The translations under genes and the position numbers were made by a program. Positions 1,812 to 32,560 of a stretch of 37,794 nucleotides of DNA are shown here, piece after piece. Every line of letters begins with the position of its first letter. The first letter of the stretch is position 1. Location of the stretch: positions 1 through 37,794 of IMG/VR virus record IMGVR_UViG_3300042197_001218, one strand, 5' to 3'. This DNA comes from a virus. The notes beneath the pieces were generated by a model. It searched no databases, had not been told where the DNA came from, and saw only the letters and a list, made by a program, of their open reading frames with translations.

Positions 1812-2536
1812 CCTACATACCTCGCTATGAGTCCTGTACTACTACCGCCACCATACACTTTTACACCACTACCTTTTACGGCTATTTCTAATTCACGCTT
1901 GTTAGGTAACTTTTCTACGGGGAATTCAAAAAACCAACTATGTTCTGTTTCGCCTAGATATGTACCACCCACTTTGCTAAAAAATTTAGCCATTTGATTA
2001 TCGCTATAGTTTAAAACAAGCCCTTCGTTTTTTCTAATCTTAACCCATCCAGTGACTTCAATATCGGATCGAGATTTTAGATTAGCCCACATAGCACGAC
2101 CGCCTGGACTTTGACTATCACCTGCCATTAATATGCCATCTAATCCACTAGGGTTTGGCAGCATGAAACCATCATAAAGATGTTGTGCTATGCCTTGCCC
2201 GCGGAATTCGGGATTAACACCTATAGCACCTACGCCATATATAACTTTTTGATAATAGTTGTCAATTCCCATATTATATGCGTTCAAAGCACCAACGATT
2301 TTCCACTGAAAAGGCGCTTCCCACTGATTGTAGTGAGGTGCCTCATCTGAATTTTTTACAGCAATTAAGGACAGTGATGATGTTCTATACAGTGGCTGTA
2401 TACTGTGAAAGAATGGGTTATCACCGGGCACTTTTCTCCACTGATCTGCGGCTAAGTTTTTATACTTATGATGGTATAGTACTAAATCATCACTGGGATC
2501 ATAACTGCGGATTTTAAAAATTTCGTTTATCTTCAT
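1808..2536 (-). CDS. Leader-tagged GNAT-family N-acetyltransferase (paralogue of the next gene)
   Basis: A 242-residue protein with the GNAT motif A loop FRGQGIAQHLYDG (R112 to G117 region) after the strand GVGAIGVNPE. It begins MKINEIFKIR, matching the leader pattern but lacking the downstream I/L-x-E of the others; only I-N-E at residues 3-5 fits. Its last 40 residues resemble those of the 858-1811 protein. It overlaps both neighbours by four bases (ATGA), which suggests translational coupling with the amidoligase-like gene upstream and the second GNAT gene downstream. The target is unknown; packaging in the virion is inferred only from the leader. Confidence 0.65.
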   Translation of the reverse strand: MKINEIFKIRSYDPSDDLVLYHHKYKNLAADQWRKVPGDNPFFHSIQPLYRTSSLSLIAVKNSDEAPHYNQWEAPFQWKIVGALNAYNMGIDNYYQKVIYGVGAIGVNPEFRGQGIAQHLYDGFMLPNPSGLDGILMAGDSQSPGGRAMWANLKSRSDIEVTGWVKIRKNEGLVLNYSDNQMAKFFSKVGGTYLGETEHSWFFEFPVEKLPNKRELEIAVKGSGVKVYGGGSSTGLIARYVG

Positions 2537-4389
2537 GATTGTGCTCGTCTATATCCATAACCAGCAGGTGAGTTAATACCTCTATTAATTAAGTATTGTC
2601 TGAATATTGCTCTTCTACTTTCCGGTGCGGGGGAGGAATAGAACCTTCCTATAATTTCATTGGGATTATCGACCGCAAAGACCTCGTATTGTATTTCTGT
2701 TTCATTACCTGGTTCCAATTCATTACGCTGGGTATCTAAATCGTATCGTCTAGTAGGTGTTGCCCTCAATCTACCTGCAGTAATACCTTGTCTAACCCAC
2801 TCCGGTGTGCCATTTAACGCCATTTGTTTTGCTTCTTCAGCATCTTTACCAACTACTTCAATACCATAACTAGAGCCTGGCAATTCAACCTTCCACCAAT
2901 ATTTGCCACTTGCTACACCTGACGAAATATCTCTTTGAAGTCTTTCTTTTTGTAATACATCTAACGCTTGTTTTCTAAAAGATTTAGTAGTGTCAATACT
3001 AGCACCGCCGCCGATCTTAATTAAATATTTACTAAATTCGTCTACCATGTCACCGTAAACGTCTTTAGATGGCTTTAGCAGTTTATAAAGTTTCTTTAAG
3101 TATTCTTCACGATACTTGTCTGGATTACTAGCAGCATCTAGGGCTACTATAAATCGTAACATAGTAGGTTTCACTTCATTCCAAAATCTATCATCCAACC
3201 AATCGCCACCAGGGCTACGGAATTCAATATATTTGTCTTTGAAGTTTACACTAAAGCGTTTGTCTGGGTTAGCACTGGCAATACTCTGAGCACCTAGATG
3301 GGCAAGATACCTACGCATCTTGTCAAATATTTCTGGAATTACATCAGGCTTTTCTCTAACTGCCCGATTTACATAATCAAACGAACTTTTGGCGTATGTA
3401 TTACTACTGCGATTGAATACATCTAATACATAGTTGTCGTCCAACAATAATACTAATTTTACATAGTCAACCGTTAATCTGCTGAAATTAGGAACACTAA
3501 CACTAATATGTAGGCCTGTGCTGTTATTGGTATAACATCCTGTGTCATCTGCCCACCGTTTAACCAGATCCATTTTCTCTAACATTACATCTAGAGGTAA
3601 TCCACCATCTGGTGTCACAAATTCTAGTCCACCATCAGTATCATCATTGGTACTAATACTGCCATCTGGTTCTACTCGCCAATCAGTTTTATTGACATTT
3701 CTATATCTACCACTACTGTATACGGCGTTTACACCTACGCTATCACCAAAACTTTCCGCTACATCTTCACCACTAATGTCGGGTGAACTAGTGGATTCCG
3801 GTTCGGTCCAGTATGGCCAATCAACGATATGATCATATTCGTTGTAAACATCCAACATGGTGTCCAAACCTACATCTTCTAAGAATTCTTCTTCAGTAAG
3901 TTCATCGGATTTTACTGCACGGTATTCGTCATAAATTTGTGACGGTACCTTGTCTATTGTTCTTTCAACCAGTTCTTCAAATTCTTTGTCGCTCATGTCC
4001 TGAGCGCCGTCAATATCGTTGAGGTATAGATAATCGCTAATGAATTCTTTTTTATCTCTTTCCCACGTTGCTTCAGCTTGTGTCTCCATCCAATCCCGCC
4101 AACGATCTTCCAATCTATTCATTAGACGACTCACAGACTGTCTACTGTTGTTACCACCGCCACTGAAAAAATCCTCAATATTGCTAATACTGTCTGCCAC
4201 TTCATCTTCTCTTTCGCGTTCTGGCTCACTTTCCTCCTCGCGTTCTCCAGCGCCAGGCACGCACATTTCAAATTCCATTCCTACTCTAACACCTTGAACT
4301 TGACTGGCCAACTGTTCAAGATTGGTTGGACTCATGTTGATTTCAAATAAATCAACTGCTGGTTTTTTGGTAAATTCGCGTAATCTCAT
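2533..4389 (-). CDS. Leader-tagged amidoligase-like (COOH-NH2 ligase) protein
   Basis: The frame is open from 4461, but the first 24 codons translate the terminator hairpin at 4425-4455, so I choose the ATG at 4389, which gives 618 residues starting MRLREFTKKP. The long leader ends in L-F-E before Ile, again a possible prohead-protease site. Motifs fit the Amidoligase_2 family: VGMEFEM near the N-terminus, WRVEPDGSI, GLEFVTP, TGLHISVSVP and YIEFRSPGGD, which in the family form the ATP/Mg and substrate site. A highly acidic insert (E/D/R-rich) lies between the first and second motifs. A C-terminal region of about 150 residues has no recognisable domain. It is the first gene of the tagged run. 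The substrate is unknown; family members form amide or peptide bonds. Confidence 0.6.
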   Translation of the reverse strand: MRLREFTKKPAVDLFEINMSPTNLEQLASQVQGVRVGMEFEMCVPGAGEREEESEPEREREDEVADSISNIEDFFSGGGNNSRQSVSRLMNRLEDRWRDWMETQAEATWERDKKEFISDYLYLNDIDGAQDMSDKEFEELVERTIDKVPSQIYDEYRAVKSDELTEEEFLEDVGLDTMLDVYNEYDHIVDWPYWTEPESTSSPDISGEDVAESFGDSVGVNAVYSSGRYRNVNKTDWRVEPDGSISTNDDTDGGLEFVTPDGGLPLDVMLEKMDLVKRWADDTGCYTNNSTGLHISVSVPNFSRLTVDYVKLVLLLDDNYVLDVFNRSSNTYAKSSFDYVNRAVREKPDVIPEIFDKMRRYLAHLGAQSIASANPDKRFSVNFKDKYIEFRSPGGDWLDDRFWNEVKPTMLRFIVALDAASNPDKYREEYLKKLYKLLKPSKDVYGDMVDEFSKYLIKIGGGASIDTTKSFRKQALDVLQKERLQRDISSGVASGKYWWKVELPGSSYGIEVVGKDAEEAKQMALNGTPEWVRQGITAGRLRATPTRRYDLDTQRNELEPGNETEIQYEVFAVDNPNEIIGRFYSSPAPESRRAIFRQYLINRGINSPAGYGYRRAQS

Positions 4390-4424
4390 ACTATTCCCAG
4401 GAACTATATAATAAGTATTTAGCC

Positions 4425-4455
4425 AAAAAACAAAGGCCGCTAATATAGCGGCCTT
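4425..4455 (-). terminator. Rho-independent terminator of the nuclease gene
   Basis: A 10-bp perfect stem (AAGGCCGCTA / TAGCGGCCTT, 4433-4442 and 4446-4455) with a 3-base loop. On the minus strand it is followed by TTTGTTTTTTGG. It lies 17 bases after the stop of the thermonuclease gene and before the amidoligase-like start. Confidence 0.85.
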
Positions 4456-4471
4456 CGTCATTGAGAATCAA

Positions 4472-6059: not shown

Positions 6060-6154
6060 TGTATAAATAAAATTGCCGATCACGATGCTACCAACATCTA
6101 TCGGCTCTAACTGCTATATTTTTACAAGGAGCAATCAGCATGACTATTTATACA
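6060..6154 (+). promoter_or_regulatory. Consensus late promoter whose octamer can pair with the start of the homing endonuclease gene
   Basis: TATAAATA at 6062-6069 exactly matches the T4 late -10 element. The ten bases 6060-6069 are complementary to 6145-6154 (codons 2-5 of the following gene). A nested 6-bp stem (GCCGAT 6075-6080 with ATCGGC 6100-6105) lies between. RNA coming from upstream could close this structure around the Shine-Dalgarno (AAGGAG, about 6126) and ATG; RNA started at the late promoter cannot. Confidence 0.55.
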
Positions 6155-7021
6155 CATTCAACGCTGTCAGAAAGAGTTATAAATAATTTTGTCCCGACAC
6201 GTCTTTATATAAAAGAACTAGTCGGAATAAAATATTTTGGAAAAACAACACAGAACAACATTGAATCATATTCTGGATCTGGTGTTGTTTGGTCGAAGCG
6301 AATCAAAAAGTACGGCAAGCAAAATATAAAAACTCTATGGATTAGTGATTGGTATCATGATCCATATGAGATCATGAAAGATGCTCTAAGATTCTCGATA
6401 GAAAACAACATTGTTGAGTCTAGTGAGTGGGCAAATTTGTGGCCAGAAAATGGAATAAACGGTGGAAGAACTCGCAAAGTATCAGCAAACAAGGGAAAAT
6501 GTGTTGTTGCTGATCAAAATGGCAACACATTTATGTTAGATAAAGATTCACCACTGATCTCTTCTGGTCAAGTAAAATCAATAAATAAAGGAACAATAGG
6601 AGTTATTGTTGTAGGCACTGAAAAGTCTAAACGAGTCAGCATTGAAGAATTTCATAATAATAGACATCAGTATATGACGCTAACTGAGGGTAAGAGTAGA
6701 AAAGTAGATAAATTACGAGGGAAAATAACAGCAAAAGACTCTACTGGAAAAACAGTGAAGATTGATATAACCGATGAAAGACTAAAGTCCGGAGAACTAC
6801 ATGCTCTCTCGAAGGGAAGAGTAAATGTTGTTGATGAAAATGGAAAATCAATTAGTGTTTCAGTTGAAGATCCTGACTATATCTCCGGAAAATTTAAATT
6901 TTCCGGAGGTACAAAAAAAGGATTCAAACAACAAATCGTAACTTGTCCACACTGTGGTAGATCCGGCGGTAAAAGTAATCTAACTCGTCATCACTTTGAT
7001 AAGTGTGATTTCAAGAATTAA
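6140..7021 (+). CDS. GIY-YIG-like homing endonuclease with repeated DNA-binding modules and a C-terminal zinc finger
   Basis: The 293-residue protein begins with a degenerate GIY-YIG-type domain: RLYIKELVGIKYFGKT supplies the two short motifs, and GSGVVWSKRIKKYG and the WANLWPENG region follow as in phage homing endonucleases. Residues about 120-260 contain three diverged modules with the pattern V-x-D-x-x-G-x, then an acidic strand, then S-G-x...K-G. The C-terminus has CPHCG...H-H...C, a likely zinc finger. AAGGAG precedes the ATG. It is a plus-strand insertion among minus-strand genes and its 3' end overlaps the end of the UvdE-like gene by 11 bases, as expected for a selfish element. The target site is unknown. 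Confidence 0.72.
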   Translation: MTIYTHSTLSERVINNFVPTRLYIKELVGIKYFGKTTQNNIESYSGSGVVWSKRIKKYGKQNIKTLWISDWYHDPYEIMKDALRFSIENNIVESSEWANLWPENGINGGRTRKVSANKGKCVVADQNGNTFMLDKDSPLISSGQVKSINKGTIGVIVVGTEKSKRVSIEEFHNNRHQYMTLTEGKSRKVDKLRGKITAKDSTGKTVKIDITDERLKSGELHALSKGRVNVVDENGKSISVSVEDPDYISGKFKFSGGTKKGFKQQIVTCPHCGRSGGKSNLTRHHFDKCDFKN

Positions 7022-8057
7022 GTGTCCATTGCGAGTATAGATCATTACTGGCAAGATTCTTCAATTTTGATTCGACCATACAGTCTCCCCATTCCCAGTG
7101 TTGGCGTGCCCATTTGTTTACCGCGATATTCCACATACCGTTGCTATGAGCGCGAAGTTTGGCTTTTTTATGTCCTAATTCAATTAGCGCACTAATGGAG
7201 GGAATGGCGTCATGAGGATGTTCTCCGAGTACACTTTCATGACTTTGACTGTAATGAAAAGTAGGACGACGATCAATACCGCTGCGACACCAACTTTCAA
7301 TAACCATTTGAATGCGTGAATCATCTGCTTCAATATATTCTCCTGTATTGATCCAATGATGATGTAAATCCAGGACGATGCCTGCTTTATGTTTTAGTTT
7401 CAGCACAACATCCAATCCTGCTTGAAACTCGTCGTTTTCTAGAGTCAACATATTACGAAGTTCCGGACTCATACGATTCCAAGCAGAATCAAATCCACTC
7501 ACTGCGCGTTTTCCACTCAAATGAATATTTATTTTAGCGTCTAGAAGAGAATTTCCATATCCCATCCATCGCATCATATCAGTGTGATACTCAAGTTCTT
7601 CCAAACTATTTTGAACAATTCCCTCATTTTCACTAACGATGCAGCAGAATTGGCCTGGGTGAAATGATAGCCGAACATCACGCTCCCGCGCAATACGACC
7701 TACCTCAGCGAAGTGTCGTTCAGCATACCTAATTACGTCGGATTGTTTGTAAAAATAACCCCACTTTGGCTCAGTGTATACGGGTAGAACTTCGCTTGAT
7801 AGACGCACCATTCGTAGATGTGGTTCAAATGAGCCAACTTTTGTGACCAGTTTACGCAGTGATTCAATGTTTGATTTCATCAAATCCCACAACTTGTCTT
7901 CGGCCACAGATACACTTTGACGATTTAGCCACGCAACGGTGGTAGTACCAGTATTGTACTGCTTACACTCATCTTTAGGCTTGATACTGTCCATTTGTGA
8001 TGGATAGTCAATCAACTTACAAGCAAAGCCTAGCCGACGCACAGAATTATTAAACAT
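7011..8057 (-). CDS. uvsE: UV damage endonuclease (UvdE/UvsE-like, TIM barrel)
   Basis: The 348-residue protein follows the UvdE family throughout: N-terminal VRRLGFACK, RLSSEVLPV, LSFHPGQFCCI (His ligand), INIHLSGK (His), LTLENDE (Glu), LDLHHHWIN (His) and FHYSQSHES. These are the metal-binding positions of the xylose-isomerase-like barrel that nicks DNA 5' to UV photoproducts. Length is normal for the bacterial enzyme. It lets the phage repair its genome independently of photolyase or nucleotide excision repair, useful in sunlit water. No Shine-Dalgarno is evident before the ATG at 8057, but a consensus sigma70 promoter lies just upstream. It converges on, and slightly overlaps, the homing endonuclease gene. 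Confidence 0.85.
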   Translation of the reverse strand: MFNNSVRRLGFACKLIDYPSQMDSIKPKDECKQYNTGTTTVAWLNRQSVSVAEDKLWDLMKSNIESLRKLVTKVGSFEPHLRMVRLSSEVLPVYTEPKWGYFYKQSDVIRYAERHFAEVGRIARERDVRLSFHPGQFCCIVSENEGIVQNSLEELEYHTDMMRWMGYGNSLLDAKINIHLSGKRAVSGFDSAWNRMSPELRNMLTLENDEFQAGLDVVLKLKHKAGIVLDLHHHWINTGEYIEADDSRIQMVIESWCRSGIDRRPTFHYSQSHESVLGEHPHDAIPSISALIELGHKKAKLRAHSNGMWNIAVNKWARQHWEWGDCMVESKLKNLASNDLYSQWTLNS

Positions 8058-8937: not shown

Positions 8938-9303
8938 TTAACTCCACATCAATGCCATGATTATAGCATGGTTCTGGTATTTTTGTCTAACTTTGATCGT
9001 TATGTGATCAATGTTATGCTTTGACATGCCCCACTGCCAATCTCTGCCCTGCCGTCCAACATGTTTTTCTAGGTACCATCTACAATGGTCATTGGGATTA
9101 GTACTGAATCCTAGATCAACCCAAACAGCACCCATATCCACCCATCTAGGATCATTGTGATCTACAACGATGTTTCCTGACGGCCATTTGATATCAATGA
9201 CGGTACCTGGAACAAATTTCCACCAAAGTTTTTCCCAAAATCCTAAACCATGTGGCATAGTTTTGTCATTAAATAAGCGATCTATCAAACGCATCATTGT
9301 CAT
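8938..9303 (-). CDS. LRW-family array member 19 (last)
   Basis: 121 residues; the C-terminus is HAIIMALMWS, so the Arg is replaced by Met and Ser is encoded by AGT, giving GGAG for the next gene. It is longer than most members, with WEKLWWKFVPG and PSGNIVVDHNDPRWVDMG before the family end. The start lies inside the extended tail of the previous gene, with no GAGGTGG signal. Confidence 0.65.
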   Translation of the reverse strand: MTMMRLIDRLFNDKTMPHGLGFWEKLWWKFVPGTVIDIKWPSGNIVVDHNDPRWVDMGAVWVDLGFSTNPNDHCRWYLEKHVGRQGRDWQWGMSKHNIDHITIKVRQKYQNHAIIMALMWS

Positions 9304-9535
9304 GGTGTATATATTCAGGTTTCTTCAGTGCGAATATTACCGCATTGTGTGGATCATCGAATTCAACTATGGCTTTATCTGCGTCACGGTGTGGTGTTAT
9401 ACTGAATCCCACACACTGAAGACCGATTCGCCAACACCCGGAAATATGTTGATCAATCCAAACGATCCAATTAGCACGATCACGCTCGTATTCATAATCA
9501 CCACCATTACCGCAATAAACTACCACTGAATTCAT
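9269..9535 (-). CDS. LRW-family array member 18, C-terminus altered
   Basis: 88 residues from the ATG at 9535. The family ending is recognisable (FDDPHNAVIFALK) but the Trp-Ser-stop is missing and the frame runs 17 residues further to DRSLI, overlapping the next gene by 35 bases. This looks like loss of the usual stop, and with it the standard Shine-Dalgarno for member 19. Confidence 0.65.
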   Translation of the reverse strand: MNSVVVYCGNGGDYEYERDRANWIVWIDQHISGCWRIGLQCVGFSITPHRDADKAIVEFDDPHNAVIFALKKPEYIHHDNDAFDRSLI

Positions 9536-9729
9536 GACCACCTCAATGATACTAAAACAGCATGTTCTTCTTTGTAAACGTATAAAAACAATTTTTTATC
9601 TAATGTATTATAAATTGTATTCCAATCTTCATATGGTTCGCCAATATTATTTCGGAGCCATTTTCGTATTTCTGCTGTTTCTTTACTATGGTAGTAGTAT
9701 TTTGTTTGAATAACAAATTTAGATTTCAT
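9532..9729 (-). CDS. LRW-family array member 17
   Basis: 65 residues from the ATG at 9729, placed 5 bases after GAAGTGG. It has the helix IRKWLRNNIGEPYEDW, a strand KKLFLYVY and the ending EEHAVLVSLRWS. This is one of the clearest minimal forms of the family and useful as an alignment seed. Confidence 0.65.
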   Translation of the reverse strand: MKSKFVIQTKYYYHSKETAEIRKWLRNNIGEPYEDWNTIYNTLDKKLFLYVYKEEHAVLVSLRWS

Positions 9730-9911
9730 GACCACTTCAGTAAATACATCATATATACATCTTCATCCATAGTTATACATTGTTCGTAGTAGTCTACATA
9801 TGTATCCCAACGATCTTCTATTCTGCCAAAATTTTCAGTTAACCAATTACAGACTTTATAATAATGATAAGGATCCCACTTTCCGTATTCTACCGAATAT
9901 CTTATCATCAT
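9726..9911 (-). CDS. LRW-family array member 16
   Basis: 61 residues from the ATG at 9911 (the open frame extends to 9971 but lacks a ribosome site there). It contains VCNWLTENFGRIEDRW and ends DVYMMYLLKWS; Lys (AAG) replaces Arg (AGG), a single-base change that also weakens the next Shine-Dalgarno to GAAGTGG. Confidence 0.65.
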   Translation of the reverse strand: MMIRYSVEYGKWDPYHYYKVCNWLTENFGRIEDRWDTYVDYYEQCITMDEDVYMMYLLKWS

Positions 9912-10126
9912 AACCACCTCAATACAAAAAGTGCGGCATCTGACTCTCTCAAATAGATAACGCTGCCCCAATCAGGTTTAGTATGAGGAGGCGGGATATT
10001 TAATTCCCGTAACCACTCTTTTAACTGCTTTATTTCTTCTAATCTATATTCTATCAGTTCAATCCTGTATTCGTAGGGGTAATCTGGAGTTTGTTTATAA
10101 CCTAACTTAATCATACGAAATTTCAT
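9908..10126 (-). CDS. LRW-family array member 15
   Basis: 72 residues from the ATG at 10126. It contains IKQLKEWLRELNIPPPHTK and ends ESDAALFVLRWL; the last residue is Leu because the junction reads TGGTTATGATG rather than TGGTCATGA. Confidence 0.62.
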   Translation of the reverse strand: MKFRMIKLGYKQTPDYPYEYRIELIEYRLEEIKQLKEWLRELNIPPPHTKPDWGSVIYLRESDAALFVLRWL

Positions 10127-10311
10127 GTCCACCTCAATACGAAAAGCATGGCATCCTGTTCAGAATTAAATTTCCACTGTAATGTATTAACATTACCTGG
10201 CGCAAAGTATACTCCAATAAAAGTTGGACAATTGTCCTGAGTCCACCATTGAATTTCGTCATAATCTGCCATTGAAAATTTTGGTGTTTCTATGATTGTA
10301 ACAGAATTCAT
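10123..10311 (-). CDS. LRW-family array member 14
   Basis: 62 residues from the ATG at 10311, five bases after GAGG. It contains EIQWWTQDNCPTFIG and ends FNSEQDAMLFVLRWT, close to the family consensus; Thr (ACA) replaces the terminal Ser. Confidence 0.65.
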   Translation of the reverse strand: MNSVTIIETPKFSMADYDEIQWWTQDNCPTFIGVYFAPGNVNTLQWKFNSEQDAMLFVLRWT

Positions 10312-10553
10312 GACCACCTCAAAAGAAACCACGCCCACTGTTCTTCAGTGAATTCAAATGTAATAAAACCCTCTCTATTACGATACATACGAGTTATACC
10401 AAAATGTTGCGGCGCCAGTGAAATCAATCCATCATATCCATTTTTACACCAACTTATATTCATTTCTGGTGTAAAATTGACACGAATAATACGATCCACC
10501 ATGGACCAATAATTGAAATTTGTATCAGTTACTTTTCCAGTGAAAATCAACAT
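10308..10553 (-). CDS. LRW-family array member 13
   Basis: 81 residues from the ATG at 10553, preceded at 11 bases by GGGAG from the previous gene's Trp-Glu codons. It has more beta strand than most (ISWCKNGYDGLISL, MYRNREGFITFEF) and ends EEQWAWFLLRWS. Confidence 0.62.
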   Translation of the reverse strand: MLIFTGKVTDTNFNYWSMVDRIIRVNFTPEMNISWCKNGYDGLISLAPQHFGITRMYRNREGFITFEFTEEQWAWFLLRWS

Positions 10554-10561
10554 AATGTATT

Positions 10562-10906
10562 TTACTCCCAACGCAGTAAGAATAGTGAAAATTCTTTATC
10601 AGTTCTGAAAAATATACGCTCTTGATTTTCATCCATTTCCCAACACCAATGCTCATTATGTGATACAGCATCTGGATTCAAGACTTTGTTATGATCTAAG
10701 TCTTTATACCACAGTTTAAGCGTTTTGCTAGGACCCCAGGTTTCCCAACACCATGCGAACCAACTATGAAATTGTTGCTGTGCTTGATAAGTTGAAATTT
10801 TACTATTAGAGTTGAAATAGGAATATGGATTAGGCCGTTTTACATAGTATGTCCATTGTCCATACCCACTATGTCGCCCATCAATTTTATGTACATGTTT
10901 CATCAT
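10562..10906 (-). CDS. LRW-family array member 12 (long form)
   Basis: 114 residues from the ATG at 10906. The ending FSLFLLRWE is encoded CTG CGT TGG GAG TAA, so Leu and Arg use codons unrelated to the usual TTG AGG: evidence for selection on the peptide. Very rich in Trp, Tyr and His (HSWFAWCWETWGPSK). Confidence 0.65.
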   Translation of the reverse strand: MMKHVHKIDGRHSGYGQWTYYVKRPNPYSYFNSNSKISTYQAQQQFHSWFAWCWETWGPSKTLKLWYKDLDHNKVLNPDAVSHNEHWCWEMDENQERIFFRTDKEFSLFLLRWE

Positions 10907-11115
10907 AACCACCTCAACGCAAACCACATAGCATCCTCTGATCGCTCAAACCACCAAGTGTCAGTTCCATAATACACATAGAATTTTCCAGTGCTGGGCT
11001 GTTGCTGACACCAACGCTTGAGTGCTTGATCACCTACATGATATAGATTTTTGGGCCTTGAAATTTTGGTCCAACATCTACGCCTAATATCTTTATCCTT
11101 GTTCCAGTATTTCAT
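10903..11115 (-). CDS. LRW-family array member 11
   Basis: 70 residues from the ATG at 11115 (GAGGTGGGC upstream). Basic N-terminus (KDKDIRRRCWTKISRPK), then ALKRWCQQQPSTGKFYVYYG and the ending SEDAMWFALRWL, almost identical over eleven residues to member 10. Confidence 0.64.
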   Translation of the reverse strand: MKYWNKDKDIRRRCWTKISRPKNLYHVGDQALKRWCQQQPSTGKFYVYYGTDTWWFERSEDAMWFALRWL

Positions 11116-11318
11116 GCCCACCTCAACGCAAACCACATAGCATCCTTCGATCTAGCAAAGTAAATAACTCTCCGATCATAATCCTGTAAGTCTACACCAG
11201 CAGCATCATAGTCCATGTCATGAACATTGTCGATCAACCAGATACGCAGATCACGCCATTGTCCTGTGCTACGATAAGTCACACTGACAGCGATATTACA
11301 CCGATCTCGTTTACTCAT
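11112..11318 (-). CDS. LRW-family array member 10
   Basis: 68 residues from the ATG at 11318. It contains LRIWLIDNVHDMDYD, RRVIYFARSKDAMWFALRWA. The shared DAMWFALRW with member 11, also similar at DNA level, marks the most recent duplication in the array. Confidence 0.65.
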   Translation of the reverse strand: MSKRDRCNIAVSVTYRSTGQWRDLRIWLIDNVHDMDYDAAGVDLQDYDRRVIYFARSKDAMWFALRWA

Positions 11319-11497
11319 GACCACCTCAATACAGTTAGTATATAATCTTTTTCGTCACTAAAATAAAAACGGTAACAATTAGTATCACGACAAACATCAT
11401 TTGTTATGTAAGATGGACAATTCTCTTTAATCCATAATAACACTGATTCAGTTACTATAAATAGTCGGCCACATGGCCAATAAAAAATATAACTCAT
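11315..11497 (-). CDS. LRW-family array member 9
   Basis: 60 residues from the ATG at 11497, the shortest member. It has VLLWIKENCPSYIT and ends DEKDYILTVLRWS. Its Shine-Dalgarno is poor because the upstream gene ends AAA GCA TGG instead of TTG AGG TGG. Confidence 0.63.
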   Translation of the reverse strand: MSYIFYWPCGRLFIVTESVLLWIKENCPSYITNDVCRDTNCYRFYFSDEKDYILTVLRWS

Positions 11498-11706
11498 GAC
11501 CATGCTTTCTTAAATTTGATGGCATGTGCTTCACTCTTGAAATACCAAACAGTGCGAGTAGTACCGGTCATCACATATTCAGCAGGATCTATGCCCAACT
11601 TATACCAATCTACATCAAATTCACCAATATGAGCCTGACACCACAATTGTATCTCATACCACTCAGGGGTGTATAGCGTTATGTGAAATTTCCATTCAGG
11701 ACTCAT
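11494..11706 (-). CDS. LRW-family array member 8 (ends KAWS)
   Basis: 70 residues from the ATG at 11706. It contains YEIQLWCQAHIGEFDVDW and ends SEAHAIKFKKAWS. It is the only member with Ala in place of Arg before Trp, and the change removes GAGG from the next gene's ribosome site. Confidence 0.63.
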   Translation of the reverse strand: MSPEWKFHITLYTPEWYEIQLWCQAHIGEFDVDWYKLGIDPAEYVMTGTTRTVWYFKSEAHAIKFKKAWS

Positions 11707-11936
11707 GACCACCTCAAACCACAAAGTAAAGCAAGCCGTTCATCGTCAATTCTAACTAAAAATTTTGTTGGCTGATATGGAAAAGAACCACTGTAACCAT
11801 ACAAGTTCATTGACCAACCAGAACCTTTCCATTCAACAATTGGTTTGCTCCACAATACTTTACTGATATTGCCTTCTAACCATTCTACAATTTCATTTGG
11901 ATTACCCTTGGCTATAATATTGTGTGGCATATACAT
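11703..11936 (-). CDS. LRW-family array member 7
   Basis: 77 residues if started at the ATG at 11936 that overlaps the upstream stop (TGATG); an in-frame ATG at 11945 is possible. It has IVEWLEGNISKVLWSK, a long aromatic strand segment with WKGSGWSMNLYGYSG, and ends ERLALLCGLRWS. Confidence 0.62.
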   Translation of the reverse strand: MYMPHNIIAKGNPNEIVEWLEGNISKVLWSKPIVEWKGSGWSMNLYGYSGSFPYQPTKFLVRIDDERLALLCGLRWS

Positions 11937-12139
11937 CAATTCCATCTTAATATAAACAGTGTAGCAAACTTTTCATCCTGAATGTAAATATGCTCATTCC
12001 TGAAGCCCCAGGTGAAATTATGTTCAATCACATCCTGTGCAGGACCAAAATGTTCCTTGCACCATTTTATTTTTTTAAGGAAAGCAGAGTAGTCGTCATA
12101 CCGGTCTACCCAACAACCGAACATTTCATTGTATTTCAT
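11936..12139 (-). CDS. LRW-family array member 6
   Basis: 67 residues from the ATG at 12139. It contains KKIKWCKEHFGPAQDV and ends DEKFATLFILRWN, encoded TTA AGA TGG AAT TGA; Asn replaces Ser and Leu/Arg use alternative codons while LRW is kept. Confidence 0.64.
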   Translation of the reverse strand: MKYNEMFGCWVDRYDDYSAFLKKIKWCKEHFGPAQDVIEHNFTWGFRNEHIYIQDEKFATLFILRWN

Positions 12140-12369
12140 GACCACCTCAGCAGAAAATAAACATAATCCTGTTCGGATTCAAATTCAAGTTTTGAAGGTC
12201 CACTGTGAATATATTTCGCATTGTATGGTTTCAATTCATTGTTTATGTACTGAATGACCCCACTAAGAGTTAGCATTATGTTTGGTTCAATAGTTTGGCA
12301 AAAGTTTACCCAAAATTTTGGTGTTTCAAATGAAAAAAGATCAATTCTATATATGAATTTTTTACTCAT
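12136..12369 (-). CDS. LRW-family array member 5
   Basis: 77 residues from the ATG at 12369. It starts MSKKFIYRIDLFSFETPKFW and ends FESEQDYVYFLLRWS. Together with member 4 it forms a recognisable pair: both have F-x-x-E-T/I-P-x-F/Y-W-x-N-F near the start. Confidence 0.65.
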   Translation of the reverse strand: MSKKFIYRIDLFSFETPKFWVNFCQTIEPNIMLTLSGVIQYINNELKPYNAKYIHSGPSKLEFESEQDYVYFLLRWS

Positions 12370-12584
12370 GACCACCTCAAAACAAAAAACACGAAATCCT
12401 GCTCACTATCAAATATCAATCGCTCTGGATCTTCAACATATACGGCATTATATTGTTTTAACGAACGATTTGATTCTTTGCGCCAGTCATTAATGGATAG
12501 GTCTAAACTAAATAAGAAATTTAACCAATAATTAGGTATCTCATTAGTAAATCTTCCGACCGTAACAACAAATTTTTCATTCAT
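12366..12584 (-). CDS. LRW-family array member 4
   Basis: 72 residues from the ATG at 12584. It has FTNEIPNYWLNFLFSL, LKQYNAVYVEDPERLIFDS and the ending EQDFVFFVLRWS, close to member 5 (PYNAKYIHSGPSKLEFES), so the two are probably a tandem duplicate. Confidence 0.65.
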   Translation of the reverse strand: MNEKFVVTVGRFTNEIPNYWLNFLFSLDLSINDWRKESNRSLKQYNAVYVEDPERLIFDSEQDFVFFVLRWS

Positions 12585-12811
12585 GCCCATCTCAACAAAA
12601 ATAGCATATAGTTTTGTTCAGTGCCAAAATCCACTGGAGTATATTTTTTATAAGAATCAAACTCGCCTATTTCAACATCAAATTCTTTCTTGATTCTTTT
12701 TTTAATTTCTGATATATCAAACGGTGGATTTTTTTTATTTACATACTCAATTGCTTTAACTAAACAATTAAATGTTATGGTGCCGTTTCTAACATTTAAG
12801 ATATAACTCAT
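12581..12811 (-). CDS. LRW-family array member 3
   Basis: 76 residues from the ATG at 12811. It is more basic than the others (IKKRIKKEFDVEIG) and ends TEQNYMLFLLRWA, with Arg encoded by AGA and Ala by GCA. Confidence 0.63.
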   Translation of the reverse strand: MSYILNVRNGTITFNCLVKAIEYVNKKNPPFDISEIKKRIKKEFDVEIGEFDSYKKYTPVDFGTEQNYMLFLLRWA

Positions 12812-13074
12812 GACCACCTCAGGGCAAAATACACGGCATCCCGTTCATGACGAAAATAAATCAGACGCCGAGTATGATTGTTAGGATCAGTACCATAAAT
12901 TTGATAATCATTTCCTGCTACATTGTCCCACAACCATCGTTGTTGTTCCTTAAAATCATCTGCTGTTCTCCAGACATATGAAACAGGAATCATTTCGGCA
13001 ATGTTTCGTCTAATTTGTCGTGCTGTCTCCTCTGCTGACTTAAAGGTTTCTGGTCCCCAAAAAATCGTAGTCAT
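12808..13074 (-). CDS. LRW-family array member 2
   Basis: 88 residues from the ATG at 13074, six bases after GGAG. It contains KEQQRWLWDNVAGNDYQIYG, TRRLIYFRHERDAVYFALRWS. The middle resembles member 10 (RRVIYF), supporting common descent across the array. Confidence 0.66.
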   Translation of the reverse strand: MTTIFWGPETFKSAEETARQIRRNIAEMIPVSYVWRTADDFKEQQRWLWDNVAGNDYQIYGTDPNNHTRRLIYFRHERDAVYFALRWS

Positions 13075-13076
13075 TA

Positions 13077-13484
13077 TTAACTCCACCTCAATATAAACAA
13101 CATGTAATCACACTCATCGGTAAAGGCAGCAAAAATGTAATCACCGCCCCCTATTTCATTTATTTCCCATTCATTGCCAGTGCTAGGATATTTTATAGCA
13201 CGATGGCCATCAAGTCGCCACTTGCCTGATAAATTTTTCCTACACCATTTTGTTACATCATATGAACCAACAAATGCCAAATCCCAATAATATATTTGAT
13301 GTTTGTGATTTTCAAAACAATAGATATATTTGTATCCGTGATAGAAATCTACTAGACGAGTTGCTATGGGATTGTGTAGTGGATCATATTTGAGATTGTA
13401 TTCCTCACGATTTCTACAACCGTGCTTACGCAAAAATCTCTGCTCACGCCAATCTTGGTACCATGCTACGATCTTTTTGTACAT
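13077..13484 (-). CDS. LRW-family array member 1 (first, longest)
   Basis: The frame is open from a TTG at 13520, but a sigma70-like promoter covers that stretch, so I take the ATG at 13484 (135 residues). The N-terminal half (RFLRKHGCRNREEYN, DFYHGYKYIYCF) is not shared with other members and resembles proteins of other marine phages I have seen as hypothetical. The C-terminal half is the family domain, KWCRKNLSGKWRLDGHR to ECDYMLFILRWS. Ser is encoded AGT here but TCA elsewhere. Confidence 0.68.
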   Translation of the reverse strand: MYKKIVAWYQDWREQRFLRKHGCRNREEYNLKYDPLHNPIATRLVDFYHGYKYIYCFENHKHQIYYWDLAFVGSYDVTKWCRKNLSGKWRLDGHRAIKYPSTGNEWEINEIGGGDYIFAAFTDECDYMLFILRWS

Positions 13485-13491
13485 GTCTTGA

Positions 13492-13520
13492 AGTTTAGCA
13501 CATCTACGAATTGTAGTCAA
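13492..13520 (-). promoter_or_regulatory. Sigma70-like promoter of the LRW array
   Basis: On the minus strand TTGACT (13520-13515), 17-base spacer, TAAACT (13497-13492) preceded by TGC. It points into the array and lies a few bases from the divergent late octamer of the plus-strand gene. The -10 is only a 4-of-6 match. Confidence 0.45.
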
Positions 13521-13537: not shown

Positions 13538-14227
13538 ATGAGAATAGATGAAATAATCCAACCCCGTGAGCGTACTCAAAATGTCCCATTTACTTGGGAT
13601 GACGAACAACTAAAGCAAAAACATAATAAAGCATTAGGATTCGGCTCAAAATATAATCCCAGCCCTAGCGCAGGATATTATAGTCAAGGTTATAATGTTC
13701 GAGATCCATTCATGTACGGTAAAGTATCTCATTTACCTACTGAATTGGAACAAGACGGTTTTTATCAATATGCCCAGTTAATCAAGCCTATTATGGATAG
13801 TAATCCATATGTACCAAGAATTTATAGTATAAAACTAATTAAGGATAAAACCGGAAGAATAAGACCAGATTATCGTATGGAGAAACTAGTACACGGTCAA
13901 ACTTTAAATAAAGACATTATTCATGCTATGGGTACAAGAACACTGGGCAATGAAGAATGGTATACAAATTCCTCATACATTGATGCCGCGGATCTATGGC
14001 GAGTATTATGTAAAGAAATTGCTATAGTAATAGATGGCTGGCCTAAATTACCAAAAACATCAATAACACTTGAGATAGATCCACTATTGTTACAAGTGGC
14101 AAAGTTAATCAAGATGGCTGAGATAAAAAATCCAAAACTTGAAATTGACTTACACACTAACAATTTTATGGCCAGACCTGGGCCTGTGCCGCATATTGTA
14201 ATTAGTGATCCATTGGCTACTGAGTAA
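13538..14227 (+). CDS. Leader-tagged kinase-fold-like protein, diverged
   Basis: A 229-residue protein starting MRIDEIIQPR, the shared leader. The C-terminal part keeps a kinase-like catalytic loop, LEIDLHTNNFM, and HIVISDPLA in place of DFG, as in the protein at 197-856; YRMEKLVHGQ corresponds to its RMERL hinge. The glycine-rich loop is not obvious (around SAGYYSQGY) and the invariant lysine is uncertain, so activity is doubtful. It is a plus-strand gene convergent with the methyltransferase-like gene. Function unknown; head packaging is inferred from the leader. Confidence 0.6.
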   Translation: MRIDEIIQPRERTQNVPFTWDDEQLKQKHNKALGFGSKYNPSPSAGYYSQGYNVRDPFMYGKVSHLPTELEQDGFYQYAQLIKPIMDSNPYVPRIYSIKLIKDKTGRIRPDYRMEKLVHGQTLNKDIIHAMGTRTLGNEEWYTNSSYIDAADLWRVLCKEIAIVIDGWPKLPKTSITLEIDPLLLQVAKLIKMAEIKNPKLEIDLHTNNFMARPGPVPHIVISDPLATE

Positions 14228-16698: not shown

Positions 16699-17691
16699 TT
16701 ATACCACATCAGCAAATAAACTCGAAATTTGTCTGCTGCCAGTGTACAACACTTTTTTGGTCTTTTCGGCTAACGCCTGCGCTTCTGGAGTAGATGCTTT
16801 GTTGAATTTACTAGAATTGATAACCTTATCAATCTTGCTTAAATATACGTCTCTAATCTTAGTTATCAAATCTTGAGCACTGCTATAATTTATTCCAGTA
16901 ATAGATAACTTATTATTTGATTCTAATGTTCGAGCAATTCCTACAATTGATCCTATCAGTTGTTCTATAGTGCTTTCGTCGCCCATACCGGGATAGCGTT
17001 TAAGTAGTGGATCAATATTCTTACATCCAAAATATTTAACGGTATCAATTGCCCAGTTTTTGCGATCTGTAGTTATGTTAGTTACTTGAACGTCTTTTTG
17101 TTTACTAAATGGTACTACCTTACCGTCTGATGTTTTGATTTGAATTCCCAAATCACTGATACTTAGATTTAATGCTTCTGCCAGTGCTGAATACAAACTA
17201 GCACTTAGTACACCTTTAACACCTTCTGGTGGTGTAAGAACTGTACTCCAATCTACCAGATCAGTAAACAAACTGACTAAATCTATTTGAACGTAGTTAT
17301 CATCATCGATATTAACTATGATGTTTTTGCCATTCTCTGTTTCAAAAACACCACTGCTGTCACCGTATTGCTTGATTAGATCATAATAAAACTGACGATT
17401 TTCGTTCGTTGATTTATCTGATAGTCTAGGTATAATGAATTGAATATCTATGTCGCCATATTGTTTATCTGGTTGTGTTTGTAGGTGTTTCTGATAATAT
17501 GTTCCACTGCCAACTGGATTACCAAATTCTATGGGTTGAATATTATTTGAACTTAGCCAAGAATTTATTTTTGGTTCTATAGTATTTTTTAAGTATTCAA
17601 CTACTCGTTTTAGTAGTCCTGGCGTTAATACAGTGCTTTGTGTTTTGGTACTTGCCCAACCGCCTTCAGATATTATTTCGTATATTCGCAT
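16699..17691 (-). CDS. Leader-tagged nucleotidyltransferase (Pol-beta fold)
   Basis: The 330-residue protein begins MRIYEIISEGG, the leader with I-S-E before Gly. The core nucleotidyltransferase motif is present: GNPVGSGTYYQKHL as the G-S helix start, then YGDIDIQFIIP with the D-x-D metal ligands and YVQIDLVS with the third aspartate. The C-terminal half is helical and may be the substrate-binding domain, as in poly(A) polymerase, CCA-adding or CD-NTase-like enzymes. Which of these it resembles cannot be decided by eye. There is no Shine-Dalgarno; AATAAATA lies five bases before the ATG, as at 13538. It could add nucleotides to a host RNA, protein or small molecule after injection, but that is inference from the leader. 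Confidence 0.65.
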   Translation of the reverse strand: MRIYEIISEGGWASTKTQSTVLTPGLLKRVVEYLKNTIEPKINSWLSSNNIQPIEFGNPVGSGTYYQKHLQTQPDKQYGDIDIQFIIPRLSDKSTNENRQFYYDLIKQYGDSSGVFETENGKNIIVNIDDDNYVQIDLVSLFTDLVDWSTVLTPPEGVKGVLSASLYSALAEALNLSISDLGIQIKTSDGKVVPFSKQKDVQVTNITTDRKNWAIDTVKYFGCKNIDPLLKRYPGMGDESTIEQLIGSIVGIARTLESNNKLSITGINYSSAQDLITKIRDVYLSKIDKVINSSKFNKASTPEAQALAEKTKKVLYTGSRQISSLFADVV

Positions 17692-31846: not shown

Positions 31847-32560
31847 TTATTCATTAAATATATATTTCCATTCTTTCCATTTATCTTTTTCAGAAAGACA
31901 TCTATCTCTTACAATTTTAGTTGAAGACAAATTATAATATTTGACCACTTCCGTTACTGAATTAAAAACTCCATGAGGAGTAGATACTTTCTTCTTTCCT
32001 TTTGAATAATGTGGCAATTGAAAATTATTTTTATCTAAGATTTCATAATATGACCATATATAACCATGAGCATTTTTAAATTTCCCCTCGCATGTATATT
32101 TGATATTGCTTGGACTTTTCGCGCTTACATGTTTTGCCGCTTCGGTTAAACTATCAAATTTTCTAATAAATTTTCCAAATAAATCAAATTGATAAACTGG
32201 TTTTTTTAACATTTCATTCGCCCATTTATGCCATCCTTTACGAACATTAGTCCAATCTATATGTTCATATCCACCAGTTGGTGTATTACTTAAATTGTAA
32301 TAATTACGATTTTTTTTAGCATCAACACTTTTTAAATAAAACTCTTCTTTGACTTTTAAAAAGTTTATATCTTCAACAAATTCAAGTATTTCTCTTTTAA
32401 AGTTTTTCATTCCATATTTCTTAAATGCTTTATTTATGGCAGTGCCACCAGCCGTGTATCCATCGTTTAACGAACCGCGATGACTACCTATATATTTTTT
32501 GCCATTTATTAAATTGGTCCATTCGTATATAAATCCAACATAATTTTCAGTAGATGTCAT
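31847..32560 (-). CDS. GIY-YIG homing endonuclease between nrdA and nrdB
   Basis: 237 residues. The GIY-YIG nuclease domain is canonical: GFIYEWTNLINGKKYIGSHRG, then GGTAINKAFKKYGMKNFKRE and EEFYLKSVDA. Two C-terminal DNA-binding modules of the NUMOD/IENR type follow: VYQFDLFGKFIRKFDSLTEA...HGYIWSY and a second ending KEWKYIF. It is a free-standing element exactly between the two reductase genes, the position occupied by mob-type endonucleases in T4-like phages. GGAGG precedes the ATG but lies within a hairpin overlapping a late promoter. Confidence 0.9.
   Translation of the reverse strand: MTSTENYVGFIYEWTNLINGKKYIGSHRGSLNDGYTAGGTAINKAFKKYGMKNFKREILEFVEDINFLKVKEEFYLKSVDAKKNRNYYNLSNTPTGGYEHIDWTNVRKGWHKWANEMLKKPVYQFDLFGKFIRKFDSLTEAAKHVSAKSPSNIKYTCEGKFKNAHGYIWSYYEILDKNNFQLPHYSKGKKKVSTPHGVFNSVTEVVKYYNLSSTKIVRDRCLSEKDKWKEWKYIFNE

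Follow-up and report, generated by a model that had tools for sequence, protein, structure and literature searches.

The locus considered here raises the question of why one phage should hold nineteen small genes in a row, and what their products have in common. It occupies positions 8,938 to 13,484 of IMG/VR virus record IMGVR_UViG_3300042197_001218, a complete record of 37,794 bases that was analysed at its full length and is called the window below. The array is a local set of members of a large, previously undescribed family of phage proteins, most of which have 60–120 amino acids (aa), called here the LRW family after its conserved C-terminal residues. The most likely role of the array, judged from its sequence, is that of a series of small inhibitors, each adapted to a target of its own.

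A family with a conserved end

As proposed in the initial annotation, 19 consecutive open reading frames (ORFs), m1 to m19, run from 13484 down to 8938 with almost no spacing; they are coded on the minus strand, on which that annotation was silent. The majority of the joints between members are 4-nt ATGA overlaps. Gene starts were set by a simple Shine-Dalgarno (SD) score, and for m1 the ATG at 13484 was favoured over the TTG at 13520, which lies inside the putative −35 element. The features are listed below, where designations such as G012 refer to other records compared with the window.

13492..13520, minus strand: putative sigma70-like promoter TTGACT-N17-TAAACT at the array head, with TG ahead of the −10 element
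13077..13484, minus strand: m1, 135 aa, family member with an N-terminal extension
12808..13074, minus strand: m2, 88 aa, family member
12808..12822, minus strand: example joint CTGAGGTGGTCATGA, LRWS-stop, SD sequence GAGG and next ATG, one of 13 copies in the array
12581..12811, minus strand: m3, 76 aa, family member
12366..12584, minus strand: m4, 72 aa, family member; near in-array relative m5 (39%)
12136..12369, minus strand: m5, 77 aa, family member
11936..12139, minus strand: m6, 67 aa, family member
11703..11945, minus strand: m7, 77–80 aa, family member; alternative ATG at 11936
11494..11706, minus strand: m8, 70 aa, ends KAWS; the G012 orthologue (48%) has FKLRWQ
11315..11497, minus strand: m9, 60 aa, CPSYITN lineage, present in many contigs
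11112..11318, minus strand: m10, 68 aa, best-conserved lineage; AlphaFold2 (AF2) model
10903..11115, minus strand: m11, 70 aa, family member
10562..10906, minus strand: m12, 113–114 aa; LRW spelled CTG CGT TGG; no overlap with the next gene
10308..10553, minus strand: m13, 81 aa, family member
10123..10311, minus strand: m14, 62 aa, family member
9908..10126, minus strand: m15, 72 aa; orthologues in G003 (63%) and G010 (61%)
9726..9911, minus strand: m16, 60–61 aa; orthologues in G006 and G008
9532..9729, minus strand: m17, 65 aa, family member
9269..9535, minus strand: m18, 88 aa; family core kept, LRW end lost
8938..9303, minus strand: m19, 121 aa, ends ALMWS; most deviant member

The LRW-Ser ends described earlier hold for most of the array: 16 of the 19 members end with L[RK]W plus one residue, as does none of the 47 other proteins of the window, whereas m8 (FKKAWS), m18 (FALKKPEY..., running 35 nt into the start of m19 at 9269–9303) and m19 (ALMWS) deviate. 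The reported richness in aromatic residues was reproduced: Trp makes up 5.7% of residues in the array and 1.7% elsewhere in the window, and Tyr 6.6% and 4.5%.

The members are related and share one fold, as had been supposed, and the profile search and the structure prediction agree on this point. The family profile matched 1,332 ORFs in 161 of the 170 fetched sequences, with 921 distinct C-termini, and none of 16,156 reversed ORFs used as a control. In the window it matched 18 of the 19 members; m19 was missed, its orthologues in four other records were matched, and its membership is given by these orthologues and by its fold. Profile match or orthology, together with F-x-L-[RK]-W within about three residues of the stop codon, defines the family, and the array shows both, save for the deviating ends of m8, m18 and m19.

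The m10 model, obtained from an alignment of 77 members, has a predicted local distance difference test score (pLDDT) of 90.8 and a predicted template modelling score (pTM) of 0.76, with a strand at residues 9–14, a helix at 18–31, strands at 37–42 and 49–54, and a helix at 57–67. The m19 model, built from seven sequences of its own lineage, reached a moderate pLDDT of 69.5 and shows the same strand-helix-strand-strand-helix order. A predicted beta-alpha-beta-beta-alpha core, the C-terminal helix of which ends in FxLRW, is thus common to the two modelled members, on which the fold statement rests. Both models match A0A6J5KTI1 and A0A6J5TB89 in BFVD. These and other BFVD proteins of uncultured Caudovirales have the same predicted fold, at a probability near 1.0 and TM about 0.6–0.7, and are annotated as uncharacterised or hypothetical.

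The 15-mer TTGAGGTGGTCATGA occurs 13 times at two or fewer mismatches, always inside the array, against 0.07 copies expected, and consists of the LRWS-stop of one gene followed by GAGG, five bases and the ATG of the next. A scan of viral contigs with a DNA pattern for this joint motif gave no match. The fact that one string encodes LRWS-stop and also carries the SD sequence and start of the next gene speaks for the alternative that the genes are no family, but unrelated small genes sharing an end coded by a ribosome site. However, strict L[RK]W is retained in 22 of the 38 members without an overlapping next gene, where SD letters appear in the tail of 5 of 38 compared with 114 of 168 overlapped members (Fisher p = 5e-10), and several of these members spell R as CGN or K as AAA. 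Phe at −4 from the Trp (88%) and Phe at −13 (79%) are also conserved outside the ribosome-site codons among 402 aligned non-redundant members; these were picked by an L[RK]W-like end, so that conservation of their final positions reflects this choice, while that of the Phe positions does not. The non-overlapped members and the two Phe positions contradict that alternative, and with the common fold of two members as distant as m10 and m19 and the empty reversed-ORF control, we regard it as extremely improbable.

Because members without a following gene retain LRW, often with other codons, the sequences indicate that LRW is a protein-level feature and that the ribosome site is superimposed on a protein terminus which is itself conserved. 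If another gene comes next, the LRW codons also carry the ribosome site of that gene, by which the repeated spelling is partly explained. Since the LRW codons (TTGAGGTGG) of one gene hold the ribosome site of the next, the array would form one operon with coupled translation, and a new gene inserted behind a member could be translated via that site. The sigma70-like promoter from which early expression had been suggested does exist as a string at the array head; however, 41 such strings were found against 39.8 ± 6.6 expected, and because matches occur at this chance density, the promoter gives no evidence for early expression.

Lineages and the exchange of whole genes

The members had been described as fast-diverging, which the comparisons do not support: the paralogues in the window lie far from one another, with a median identity of 27% and a maximum of 45%, but orthologues of m10 reach 82–85%. 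With orthology taken as reciprocal best scores, an orthologue elsewhere was found for 153 of 211 members across phages, at a median identity of 45% and up to 95%; the same test gave none for 10 of the 19 window members. The ratio of nonsynonymous to synonymous substitution rates (dN/dS) in orthologue pairs was 0.07–0.47 and mostly 0.1–0.25, for short genes of which saturated pairs yield no value. These ratios do not support rapid arms-race divergence at the orthologue level. As the same lineages recur in other phages under such ratios, lineages with orthologues are old and under purifying selection, with no rapid local radiation.

The arrangement of the genes is much less stable, with 11 of 117 testable adjacencies kept. 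The m10 gene product shares 82% identity with its counterparts in G001 and G003, records in which NrdA is 45–47% identical to that of the window, but 54–59% with those in G006 and G008, where NrdA is 79–80% identical. Exchange of NrdA itself was conceivable, so an exonuclease was compared as a second gene, and it points the same way as NrdA. At the DNA level, some loci whose upstream genes differ share 91–97% identity in m10, and the homology stops at the gene edge. The shuffled order, the contradiction between m10 and core-gene relatedness and the ends of homology indicate, at the sequence level, that whole genes move between phages. Lineages recur in other uncultured phages in varying combinations and orders, as whole genes are gained, lost and exchanged.

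In the first statistics, the repeated joint appeared as a strong candidate for a recombination site. This candidate was withdrawn, because a control at ordinary gene joints of the same loci was stronger; therefore whole-gene exchange alone is supported, and joint-guided exchange is not. Counted per joint and uncorrected for conservation, homology end points are more numerous in the family (369 for 480 joints) than at ordinary genes (79 for 338). This surplus, together with the repeated joint and the shuffled order, would suit self-spreading cassettes of little benefit, in which each gene supplies the joint for the next and the products are not selected. A dN/dS well below 1 in orthologue pairs and a decayed end in just one of the 19 window members (m18) make such cassettes very unlikely.

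Occurrence among phages

The 37,794-base record is probably a fragment of a larger phage. It contains nrdA and nrdB, and its gene content suggests that the source phage is probably T4-related. The nearest compared records are the IMG/VR contigs G010, G008 and G006, with 79–83% identity in NrdA and 63–68% in the exonuclease; since G008 and G006 measure 374 and 354 kb, the window most likely derives from a jumbo phage.

Four alignments were used to scan viral contigs and gave 16, 80 (the best 80 of 159), 20 and 68 partly overlapping loci, and the m19 lineage has 159 confirmed relatives there. A catalogue of 16 phage records holds 210 members; the fetched parts of G006 and G008 contain 37 and 32 members, respectively. 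The loci were collected via motif patterns and form a biased sample, and as the contigs are fragments, absences and copy numbers are lower bounds. Two subfamily patterns found no bacterial homologue in 84,980 prokaryote species genomes. When m1, m10 and a protein of the m19 type were compared with cultured phages by tblastn, no convincing match resulted, and Stenotrophomonas phage RAS14 has no members. By profile match, low-copy members occur in the cultured Rhizobiaceae jumbo phages Agrobacterium phage Atu_ph07 and Sinorhizobium phage Phosso, where they are annotated as uncharacterised or hypothetical (in Phosso, XYS97420, XYS97422 and XYS97425); the arrays may therefore, on this distribution, be expansions of an older domain.

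In both of these phages a conserved pair is formed by a family member that overlaps the end of a PTH2-type peptidyl-tRNA hydrolase gene (MF403008, 198223–198884; PV764938, 176653–177305), and a CcrBL9 'peptidyl-tRNA hydrolase' is among the structural matches. A general link with this enzyme was rejected, because PTH2 occurs in none of the 16 array-bearing records searched, which are mostly fragments, and the peptidyl-tRNA hydrolase of Caulobacter phage CcrSwift has no LRW domain.

No family match was obtained in Pfam, NCBIfam, PHROG or PADLOC, in which single hits were scattered across members; one of them, DUF6756, had the best Pfam E value of 0.003 and fell below the curated cut-off. No account of the family or of its arrays turned up in the literature that was searched.

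Two further observations concern the arrays of other loci. The members L026:10513–10944 and L025:8372–8662, both on the minus strand, carry N-terminal additions with SNLCKEI or TNLCKEI and then proline, which resemble the NrdA stretch MSNLCTEIDLPT, and in one of the two a P-loop-like GRQTGKS precedes the addition. A second recurrent family of small genes, of the FAELIIRRCVDVI type, lies near arrays with 63 copies in 25 loci or records (loci L020–L039 and L066–L145, e.g. L105:8145–8381).

Possible roles of the array

Each product would be a binder for a different host or rival protein, with a hydrophobic core that stays constant and a remainder that varies. The array would be a portfolio of anti-host or anti-defence inhibitors or of antitoxins, like a host-takeover module or a polyimmunity locus. 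By analogy, the fixed core and variable remainder, the many stable lineages and the mosaic content suggest a portfolio of specific binders, to which we give about an even chance. The preference for an inhibitor set is likewise based on whole-gene exchange, on mosaic content and on a single-domain build in which a fixed core carries a variable remainder. None of the conserved positions looks catalytic by inspection, and the array neighbours in relatives, also by inspection, resemble genes for UvsW helicase, DNA polymerase, clamp and exonuclease, a setting compatible with an early or middle region.

Several points weigh against an inhibitor set. Purifying selection suits a housekeeping role equally well, and no member matches a known inhibitor, anti-CRISPR, immunity or defence family; no immunity-protein family is among the Pfam matches of the members. 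The low-copy members of Atu_ph07 and Phosso lie outside long arrays, and one adjoins the peptidyl-tRNA hydrolase gene, an adjacency that could point to a translation-linked role. Moreover, homology ends are concentrated 9.8-fold at ordinary gene joints, in a control that rests on rough gene calls, compared with 3.9-fold at family joints. A more elaborate form of the proposal would give one short coding element three jobs, in that it closes the fold (LRW), starts the next translation and acts as a common exchange joint. Jumbo phages would then exchange and accumulate single-domain binders out of a common pool in the environment, and the system would be the equivalent, in phages, of polyimmunity loci, but directed against host defences; this form is doubtful.

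The members could instead be accessory proteins for internal use, each serving as the adaptor of one partner among the replication, transcription or virion proteins of the phage itself. This would suit the replication-like neighbours, the purifying selection and the recurrence of some lineages in many phages; however, copy number and content vary widely and disagree with core-gene relatedness, unlike those of conserved machine parts, and the members in Atu_ph07 are few and dispersed, so that we consider such adaptors rather unlikely. A nucleic-acid-binding family, in which an RRM (RNA recognition motif)-like or ferredoxin-like sheet with aromatic-rich members binds RNA or DNA, e.g. different tRNAs or mRNAs, is suggested by the high Trp and Tyr content, by the member next to peptidyl-tRNA hydrolase in Atu_ph07 and Phosso, and by weak Foldseek matches in the PDB to ACT, ferredoxin-like and RRM (e.g. 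La) structures, with a best E value of 0.09 and TM mostly 0.3–0.6. Generic binding of this kind is disfavoured because the net charge is near zero (median −1; median isoelectric point 6.1); the R/K of LRW is the single strongly basic aligned position, and the absence of PTH2 from the 16 array-bearing records searched, most of them fragments, also speaks against it. We consider this reading unlikely.

The favoured set of small inhibitors has parallels among known systems. Polyimmunity loci of the homogeneous type, e.g. tandem SUKH genes (PMC3482391), are tandem small distant paralogues, apparently on one transcript, with content that varies between close relatives and with inferred binding to many different targets. 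The array likewise consists of tandem distant paralogues whose content varies between relatives, but it is phage-borne and without an immunity-family match, whereas polyimmunity loci are bacterial and neutralise polymorphic toxins; its joints, moreover, are coded inside a conserved C-terminus. A cluster of small, tightly packed genes, by which a phage host-takeover module is recognised, is also found here, and the SPO1 host takeover module is such a cluster of mostly small accessory genes. To our knowledge, the genes of the SPO1 module are not one paralogous family. That module has 26 genes with shown growth effects and early expression (PMC6873191). In Bacillus phage G, a zinc ribbon has expanded to about 35 copies (PMC7824862). 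As in the array, one small domain has multiplied greatly in a jumbo phage, but the fold is another one and a single phage is described, whereas the LRW family is spread over many. For the promoter-early-stem-loop cassettes of T4 (Arbiol et al.), the shuffling of small accessory genes in T4-type genomes is reportedly connected with a repeated intergenic element. The array shares the shuffled small genes and the repeated element between them; its element, however, is a 15-nt coding joint with an unsupported role in exchange rather than an intergenic promoter and stem-loop.

One fold that exists in hundreds of distinct versions, occurs in the arrays of many environmental phages and is absent from all annotation libraries tried makes up a considerable piece of phage 'dark matter', and a simple profile now suffices to recognise the LRW family. 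Should its members act as inhibitors or antitoxins, every lineage could serve to probe a host target, and the arrays would show the combinations that phages keep. The relatives in the cultured phages Atu_ph07 and Phosso make the function directly testable. An orthologue of m1, 52% identical, is found in G002.

Elsewhere in the window, a gene for the UV-damage endonuclease UvdE lies downstream of the array at 7011–8057 on the minus strand (Pfam E 6.5e-41). By inspection, an ORF resembling a GIY-YIG homing endonuclease lies between nrdB and nrdA (31847–32560, minus strand), and a second ORF of this look is at 6140–7021 on the plus strand. A similar short N-terminus, M[RK]xxEII or MRLREF, opens several unrelated proteins at 197–856 (−), 858–1811 (−), 1808–2536 (−), 2533–4461 (−), 13538–14227 (+) and 16699–17691 (−), which by inspection are of GNAT-like, amidoligase (PF12224), nucleotidyltransferase-like and kinase-like types. 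These N-termini resemble the T4-type capsid-targeting sequence of packaged internal proteins.

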